A stretch of 64,000 nucleotides of DNA from Brachyhypopomus gauderio. Taxonomy: Eukaryota > Chordata > Actinopteri > Gymnotiformes > Hypopomidae. The translations under genes and the position numbers were made by a program. Shown here in pieces: positions 25,601 to 28,600 of this stretch (its first letter is position 1; every line of letters starts with the position of its first letter). The notes under the pieces were generated by a model, which made no database searches, was not told the DNA's origin, and saw only the letters and a program-made list of their open reading frames with translations. The stretch is from the NCBI RefSeq assembly GCF_052324685.1, contig NC_135226.1, positions 14,454,332 to 14,518,331 of the forward strand, given 5' to 3'.

Positions 25601-28600
25601 AGCATAACCGTCACCGGTACTGTCAAACACAGTCCAGCCCAGAATGGACCGCTTCCACTATAAACAGACAGCATCACATAGGACTTGTGGCTTTTTCCAA
25701 GTGATCTCAAACTCTGCCCTGGTAGTGAAGAGCCCTCAAAAATATGAAAACAAAGAGTGTGTGTGTGTGTGTGTGTACACACACCTCTTCCCGCGGGGTG
25801 TCCATGTTCCACACTGTTATGGCTCCGTCAGCTGAGCAAGAGACCAGCTGCCTGGAGAGATGAAGATAACGCAGGGCCTGCACCTTCTCACTGTGAGAGA
25901 GAGAGAGAGAGAGAGAGAGAGAGAGAGAGAGAGAGAGAGAGAGAGAGAGAGAGAGAGAGAGAGAGAGAGAGAGAGAGAGAGAGAGAGAGAGAGAGAGAGA
26001 GAGGGAGGGAGAGATGTACACTCACTGATGCCCCTGCAGAACCAATCCTGTGTGTGTGTGTGTGTGGACGTATGGACATTCACTGATGTCCTTGCAGAAG
26101 CAGTCCTGTGTGTGTGTATACACTCACTGGTGTCCCTGCAGAAGCAATCCTTTGTATGTGTGTGTGTGTGGACACTCACTGGTGTCCCTGCAGAAGCGGT
26201 CCTTTGTATGTGTGTGTGTGTGGACACTCACTGGTGTCCCTGCAGAAGCAGTCCTTTGTACGTGTGTGTGTGTGTGTGTGTGTGTGTGTGTGTGGACACT
26301 CACTGGTGTCCCTGCAGAAGCAATCCTTTGTACGTGTGTGTGTGTGTGGACACTCACTGGTGTCCCTGCAGAAGCAATCCTTTGTACGTGTGTGTGTGTG
26401 TGTGTGTGTGTGGACACTCACTGGTGTCCCTGCAGAAGCAATCCTTTGTACGTGTGTGTGTGTGTGTGTGTGGACACTCACTGGTGTCCCTGCAGAAGCA
26501 ATCCTTTGTACGTGTGTGTGTGTGTGTGTGTGTGGACACTCACTGGTGTCCCTGCAGAAGCAGTCCTTTGTACGTGTGTGTGTATGTGTGTGTGGACACT
26601 CACTGGTGTCCCTGCAGAAGCAGTCCTTTGTACGTGTGTGTGTGTGTGTGGACACTCACTGGTGTCCCTGCCGAAGCAGTCCTTTGTACGTGTGTGTGTG
26701 TGTGTGTGTGTGTGGACACTCACTGGTGTCCCTGCAGAAGCAGTCCTTTGTATGTGTGTGTGTGTGTGTGTGTGTGGACACTCACTGGTGTCCCTGCAGA
26801 AGCAGTCCTTTGTATGTGTGTGTGTGTGTGTGTGTGTGTGGACACTCACTGGTGTCCCTGCAGAAGCAGTGTGCGGCCCTTTCTCCCGCCGATATCCCAC
26901 ATGATCACACTGTGGTCTGACGAGCCCGAGAACAGCCACCGCTGCACAGGGTCCCACCACAGAGCGGCTATACTCCCTACACACAGCAGCAGGGCCATCA
27001 CATCACAGCACTCACACAACCACTACATCGGTTAAAAAGACTCTTAGTGTGTGTGTGTGTGTGTGTGTGTGTGTGTGTGTGTGTGTGTGTTACCTTCATG
27101 CCCCTTCAGTGTAGTGATGGTGGAGTACGTGTCTTTCTCCAGTTTGAGCAGGGTGATCTGGCCTGAGCAATCACCCACAAACGCATGACGAGTATCGTTA
27201 TCATACCTGACCATGCAGTGAAGGAAGCTGAGAACGGAGTAGTGAACACACACACACACACACACACACACACACACACACTCTTTAAAGATACTGCAGA
27301 CAGGTGGCCCAGGAGCTGAAGCAGTGTCGTCCCAGCATGGAGCCGCTCTGGGTGCACATCCAGCTCACACTCTTGTCATGTCCTGTGCTCACCACCCACT
27401 GACTCAGCAGAGAGAACACCATGTCTGACACGCGGCCCTGGTGAGCTGCAACACACACACACACACACACACACACACACACACACACACACACACACAC
27501 ACACACATGAACAGCGAGACTACACTCCACGTTTTGCACTACTTTATTTAGAAGTGTGGATTTTAGTTCAAAATAAAAGACTGCAAAGTCGCATGTGCTT
27601 GGAACATCATCAAACCTGAAGAGTTTGGAAAGATAGTGTGCATGACAGTTACGCAGCAGGGGGCAAAGGTCACACCGATAAACAGGTGTTAACTTTAATA
27701 TACTGCTGGACTTTCCCCTCAGTTAACACACACACACACACACACACACACACACACACACACACACACACACACATATGGAGGAAAGAAAGCTGTGAGT
27801 GCTGAGTGTTGAGGTCCGGGGTCGTGGTGTCGGATGGACTACACACAGACTGGTCACACACACACACACACTCTTCCCATCATTTTGTGCATTCTCTCAG
27901 TGACCAACTCCTCACTGTGCCATGTGTATGTGGCCATTTGGAAAGAAACACCCTCAAGACATGTTGGTGAAGCCAACATAGAGGGAAGAGGGTCAAATAA
28001 TAAAGTCTGGATGTTTTTTCTAAAACTGTCTAAGACATACAGTATACAGGACACTTCTGATCTGGGATCAGCCATGTACTGTGCGTCACACATGAGGCCA
28101 GACACCCTGTCCACCCTTCACACACTGAACCTGTGGGCTCTGATTTCAGAAGCCTCATTACCCATAAGCCTTTGCTAAATGCAGCGCTCTCTAGTATCAC
28201 CTGGGTATGTTTTCACATGGTTCATCTTGTTGAAATCTTCAGAGATGAGGAACTCCTGGACAAAAGATTTGAAAAAGTTTCATTTTTAAAAATTTGTTTA
28301 AATTTAATGATTTAAAAGATAACTGCAAAATGAAGTGAAGTAGTGGACTCAGAGAATTCTTTTTTGTTTAATCAGTCACATTGACTTTTTATAGAGAATG
28401 ACCTGATGTAACCAGTAGAGGGCGGTAGAGACACACTTACAACAACAGCTCCATTGTCCTGTCCTATGAAGATCCGTCTGCTTTCGTGGTGGTACGACAC
28501 ACATGAACACGCAGCTGCACGGCGTATGAGTGGAGCGGAGAGGCAGGGAGAGGGAAGGGACACCTGTGCTTTAACCCCGTGACATGACGTTCACATTTAC

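Follow-up and report, generated by a model that had tools for sequence, protein, structure and literature searches.

Intron 7 of a wdfy1-like gene in Brachyhypopomus gauderio contains a tandem array of its own 5' splice site. The repeated core of 31 nt joins the last 21 coding nucleotides of exon 7 to the first 10 nucleotides of the intron. With up to five mismatches allowed, it was found 15 times on the minus strand from 26870 to 26016, once at the exon border (26870-26840) and 14 times within the intron, as the first-pass annotation of this DNA had proposed. A 31-nt word would not recur 14 times by chance. Judged from its sequence, the array is most likely a near-neutral, tolerated minisatellite of which the first donor is the one in use. 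Coordinates are those of the window, the whole 64,000-nt stretch of DNA that was analysed, unless a contig is named (Table 1).

Gene Model

The gene model was assembled by hand-joining open reading frames, and the borders of exons 2-4 are provisional. The joined protein combined matches to WD40 (PF00400, E 4.3e-31) and FYVE (PF01363, E 2.6e-13) domains. We provisionally take the window locus to be wdfy1 and a paralogous locus on C4 to be wdfy2, following the label given in the first-pass annotation and general knowledge of these proteins. Exon 7 joins exon 8 (from 25890) in frame as ...LLLQGHHEKVQAL..., and the frame of the genuine exon is intact, as had been stated. The CT tract that lies just after the array supplies the pyrimidine run ahead of the exon 8 acceptor.

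The same two exons recur in the paralogue on C4 at a lower identity of 67% and 53%, and the phase-2 junction is shared. Its intron of 247 nt holds a single donor copy and a short TG-rich tract only, and no array was found at the equivalent junction. The first copy of the wdfy1 array is probably the functional exon border, given its frame with exon 8 and its match in position and phase to the paralogue.

A second, smaller array was seen in intron 1 of the wdfy1-like gene (22-bp unit, 6.4 copies, window 29981-30121, minus strand), about 60 nt past the exon 1 donor. Its words AAG/GTAGCC resemble the exon 1 donor CAG/GTAGCTAGCC; no exon sequence was seen inside the array.

Table 1. Positions of the intron 7 array, its host gene and three further donor-bearing arrays at coding exon ends. 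A slash in a sequence marks an exon-intron junction.
Feature	Position	Strand	Remarks
wdfy1-like gene, ATG to stop (WD40 and FYVE)	22611..30319	minus	exon joins made manually between open reading frames
wdfy1 exon 7, 127 nt	26850..26976	minus	last 21 nt (26870-26850) form the array seed
Intron 7 donor (presumed genuine 5' splice site), CCA/GTGAGTGT	26842..26849	minus	placed by frame and paralogue
Intron 7 array, another 14 tandem copies of the exon-end/donor core	26016..26839	minus	copies separated by (CA)n and mostly A or G followed by TACAAAGG
(CT)n tract with 60 dinucleotide copies at 96% matches	25895..26014	minus	just after the array
wdfy1 exon 8, acceptor CTCTCACAG/TGAGAAG	25785..25890	minus	
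Troponin T array (L044)	C1:2518 kb (2518000-2519800)	minus	4 donor copies including the exon's own, spacing 38 nt
Troponin I array (L045)	C1:2562 kb		4 donor copies including the exon's own, spacing 44 nt
LDL-receptor-A exon array (L046/L085)	C1:3151 kb	minus	13 donor copies including the exon's own, spacing exactly 45 nt

Anatomy of the Array

The cores are spaced 44-72 nt apart, and the spacing varies with the length of the (CA)n tract that fills the gaps, in most units together with A or G followed by TACAAAGG. The same array was recovered by TRF as 26205-26870 (10.8 copies) and 26017-26274 (104-nt unit, 2.5 copies). The word GCTTCTGCAGGGACACCAGTGAGTG is exact in 11 of the 14 intronic copies and has 12 exact matches in the genome, one of which is the exon. 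It had been claimed that every unit carries a donor; GTGAGT is retained in 13 of the 14 intronic copies, and the claim fails for copy 26104-26074, where the AG and the donor are both lost. Copy 26680-26650 reads TTCGGCAG.

The variants are clustered in blocks, a pattern left by local duplications: four adjacent cores (26502, 26442, 26378, and 26324) share ATTGC, and eight adjacent units are preceded by GTACAAAGG. The units also carry five more bases, AAAGG, which might continue the exon match beyond a gap of 7 nt, a stretch too short to claim. Counted from exon 7 toward exon 8, the intronic copies show 0, 0, 1, 0, 0, 1, 1, 1, 1, 0, 1, 3, 3, and 5 mismatches to the exon core. Divergence therefore grows with distance from exon 7 (Spearman rho 0.76, one-sided permutation p 0.0016), in agreement with the earlier observation that units near the exon match it best and those on the exon 8 side are the most diverged.

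Origin of the Array

A search of the genome (796 Mb) with a 25-nt core at up to three mismatches gave 15 matches, all 15 inside the array, and the reversed control gave none. A pre-existing satellite that chances to adjoin exon 7 would be expected to leave related units elsewhere, and this check, suggested with the first annotation, found none at that threshold. Searched at full length, the 866-bp query gave 120 genome matches, which could be read in favor of such a satellite; those beyond the array itself are weaker, and their query ranges, taken without alignment, suggest CA-rich parts. In addition, 21 of the 31 core bases code for a WD40 segment common to the paralogue at the protein level. 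A pre-existing satellite was rejected on the uniqueness of the core, and we consider it almost certainly the wrong explanation. Uniqueness of the core, the divergence gradient and a paralogous junction without an array together argue that the exon 7/intron 7 border was the source of the array, which, as had been proposed, is exon-derived. Most simply, it would have arisen in wdfy1 after the split from the paralogue.

An assembly artefact or a mis-sized array is quite improbable. The copy number is that of a single assembly, and to that extent an artefact is conceivable; the units, however, differ by substitutions and CA length in a graded and blockwise manner that is unlike a duplicated contig end.

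The best explanation, which we hold to be probable, is a minisatellite that was seeded at the exon 7/intron 7 border, grew into the intron and is near-neutral, with splicing at the exon-proximal donor. The seed would have been a local duplication across the border, beside a (CA)n tract. Growth into the intron may have proceeded by slippage or unequal exchange aided by the CA tracts. Coding constraint would hold the exon copy while the far end decays. If, as presumed, splicing uses the donor nearest the exon, the array would remain close to neutral. Were a later donor leaky, the frame would run at once into CAG-TGA and yield a truncated or decayed transcript.

Relation to Known Exon-Border Minisatellites

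The wdfy1 array belongs to a kind of repeat already described, the exon/intron-border minisatellite of the type of the 31-bp variable number tandem repeat (VNTR) in human CBS. According to the title of their 2001 paper, Lievers et al. reportedly associated the CBS repeat with reduced CBS activity. The published name of the repeat, c.1444_1467+7(16_21), denotes 24 coding and 7 intronic bases in 16-21 repeats (PMC2630376). As described in the passages cited, the CBS and wdfy1 repeats are alike in that the unit consists of the last coding bases of the exon and the first bases of the intron (in wdfy1 21 + 10 nt, including the donor), whereas CBS units are invariably 31 bp and the wdfy1 core is accompanied by variable (CA)n and spaced 44-72 nt apart (PMC2630376). 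No passage on the VNTR was found in a review of CBS (PMC7277093).

Human IFI6 likewise has a minisatellite, reportedly described as a source of multiple donors by Turri et al. in 1995, and its unit is 12 nt long. In the cited passages on IFI6 (6-16, G1P3), the minisatellite gives multiple splice donors and two downstream units are used (PMC4526556). The likeness to wdfy1 is that the minisatellite units are splice donors, the motif being intact in all intronic wdfy1 copies except one. The difference is that donor use and isoforms are reported for IFI6 in those passages, whereas in wdfy1 the predicted use would give a stop. The CBS and IFI6 cases show that the earlier statement that no gene was known with a donor amplified into a minisatellite was not right, and further cases occur in the same genome (see below).

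Two other reports are more distantly related. Internal tandem repeats of human segmental duplications include minisatellites with units of about 30 bp, some of them at exon-intron boundaries as in wdfy1, which are said to generate alternative splicing patterns (PMC2812944). Unlike wdfy1, they lie in recently duplicated genes and half are in coding exons, and an amplified donor is not mentioned in the passages cited (PMC2812944). In C57BL/6J mice, a tandem duplication of Wdfy1 exons 4-6 causes aberrant splicing, nonsense-mediated decay, and lower expression (PMC9205302). This is likewise an internal duplication that disturbs splicing in the same gene; whole exons are duplicated, however, and the passages cited do not mention a donor array. 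Among the papers listed in the literature search, none described a donor array of this sort in wdfy1, judged by titles and the opening of abstracts.

Donor Strength and Predicted Effects on Splicing

Twelve of the 14 intronic donors are identical to the true donor (26849) from -3 to +8. The donor at 26025 (TCA/GTGAGTGT) differs at -3, and the one at 26083 is broken (GTGAAT). Donors were scored with a simple frequency matrix and by U1 pairing energy. On this matrix the true donor and the 12 identical copies scored 7.02, the 26025 copy 5.40 and the broken copy 1.86, and the pairing energy was -7.6 for all donors but the broken one (-1.9). Because 12 (matrix) or 13 (U1 energy) intronic donors equal the true one in strength, the splicing machinery should be capable of recognizing them, a point that counts against the neutral reading, and they could possibly act as decoy donors. 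The score is without predictive value for use, since of 628 sense-strand GT sites in the gene region ten outscore the true donor; of these, three serve exons 8, 9, and 11 as donors and seven are not known donors. The apparent donor of exon 5 (GCA/GTATCT, window 27294, minus strand) scores far under the other donors found in the gene.

Donor hexamers carry 1 change in 84 positions, vs. 16 in 350 for the rest of the core. With 17 changes in total the comparison leans toward better-kept donors and is not significant (Fisher p 0.21), so the data give no hint that selection has maintained the additional donors.

Read-through of exon 7 meets a TGA in the codon after CAG. Four of the 14 later donors were translated (26785, 26723, 26659, and 26025), and all reach their first stop at the same codon, directly after the exon. 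As the stop lies right after the exon, the same first stop holds for the remaining later donors, and use of any of them would end the protein there. Exon 7 would be extended by 64 nt at the first array donor and by 824 nt at donor 26025, a length at which exon definition should fail.

These properties bear on the possibility that the array is a rheostat, in which some transcripts would be spliced from array donors, run into the in-frame stop (TGA) and be degraded, making wdfy1 output dependent on array length. The identity of 12 array donors to the true one and the immediate stop at the four later donors tested speak for it. Also in its favor are the reported tie between the CBS repeat and reduced activity, the downstream units employed as donors in IFI6 and, in the passages cited above, the decay of transcripts from the duplicated mouse Wdfy1. 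Against it, the hexamers lack significant excess conservation, higher-scoring GT sites in the gene that are no known donors indicate that a good score is not proof of use, and the lengthening of the exon runs up to the size at which its definition should fail. We regard the rheostat as unlikely and the near-neutral minisatellite with its first donor in use as the better account.

The first-pass annotation had also offered each unit as a putative 8-nt micro-exon (TTCTGCAG/GGACACCA/GTGAGTG). The motif is exact in 11 of the 14 intronic units, but the same motif within exon 7 is simply the coding end. What precedes TTCTGCAG is mostly ACAAAGGACTGC or alike, with no real polypyrimidine tract, and one or two 8-nt exons would shift the frame to a stop, with only three together restoring it. 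The proposal is thus weak, is disfavored by frame, and is in our view very improbable. By itself, the wdfy1 array is one more exon-border minisatellite; it also provides a clean natural setting in which to ask how the spliceosome selects one of 13 identical donors (the genuine site plus its 12 copies).

Other Donor-Bearing Arrays in the Genome

Fifteen arrays with a period of at least 12 and at least three copies cover 4.8% of the window, a count from which periods under 12 and several rows overlapping listed ones were dropped. With this coverage some exon borders would be expected inside arrays under random placement, an expectation that is drawn from one window and ignores selection. Genome searches with three donor-array patterns gave 5,923, 112, and 1,019 matches vs. 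6,879, 55, and 1,518 for the reversed patterns; these counts are of overlapping placements, and the reversed control has a different base order, so no enrichment of donor-bearing arrays is claimed. They were fewer than the reversed control in two of the three patterns and more in one. The wdfy1 donor CCA/GTGAGT fits none of these patterns, and wdfy1 is in neither of the two samples that follow.

The first sample comprised 20 distinct arrays, separated by eye among the matches listed for the first pattern, all on C1 up to 23 Mb. Among these, three lie on coding exon ends (troponin T, troponin I, and the LDL-receptor-A exon), and they are within 0.65 Mb of each other and hardly independent. The LDL-receptor-A exon has a Pfam match (1.1e-12) and a PDB match, and troponin I was identified by Pfam (2.8e-41) and PDB (1.2e-37). 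The short troponin T exon had no Pfam match and a weak PDB match (E 0.13) when searched alone, and no Pfam match with one other exon; together with its two neighboring exons it matched Pfam Troponin (9.4e-11). Two further arrays, L049 and L060, were not assigned to exon ends. Two frames at L049 had no Pfam match, nor did the exon-like frame that L051 adjoins on the opposite strand.

In all three genes the exon end and donor are repeated into the following sequence, as in wdfy1. The exon-end bases common to the units number 15 in troponin T (exact in two of three copies, with one change in the third) and 11 of 12 in troponin I. In the LDL-receptor-A array, 14 or 17 are exact in 8 of 12 copies and the other four differ from the exon at -2. 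Unlike the wdfy1 array, the three have a regular period and no long (CA)n spacer in their units. The LDL-receptor-A array differs further in that the frame stays open through it, as part of a 286-aa open frame, and later donors would add repeats of 15 aa.

The second sample comprised 16 arrays, again separated by eye among the matches listed, here for the second pattern, with a 17th place, C6:26430105, left out. Among these matches, none of the 16 was shown to lie on an exon end; at L063, L072, and L076 an open frame reaches the first donor. This result was counted against the reading of the wdfy1 array as a near-neutral minisatellite grown from its exon border. The abundance of arrays and the three of 20 on coding exon ends in the first sample support the neutral reading. 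Taken as a small survey, the two samples suggest that exon-border donor arrays recur in this genome, two muscle genes included. Fish genomes rich in repeats may hold a class of genes with donor arrays, and in some of them, such as wdfy1 with its built-in CAG-TGA, array length might set the level of productive splicing, as an inherited control that mutates fast; we offer this as a speculation and think it doubtful.

The troponin T unit combines an acceptor-like tract (TTCTGTTTCACTCCCATACAG) with 12 in-frame bases (changed in one copy) and the donor GTGAGT. By sequence, it is a better candidate for a micro-exon than wdfy1. At L063/L081 (C2:46735 kb, minus strand), an 18-nt array with CAGGTAAGT words stays open in frame with the upstream frame and repeats LTLSGK. 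Within the window, a 51-bp array at 10251-10978 (14.3 copies, 99% matches) is very homogeneous and probably recent.
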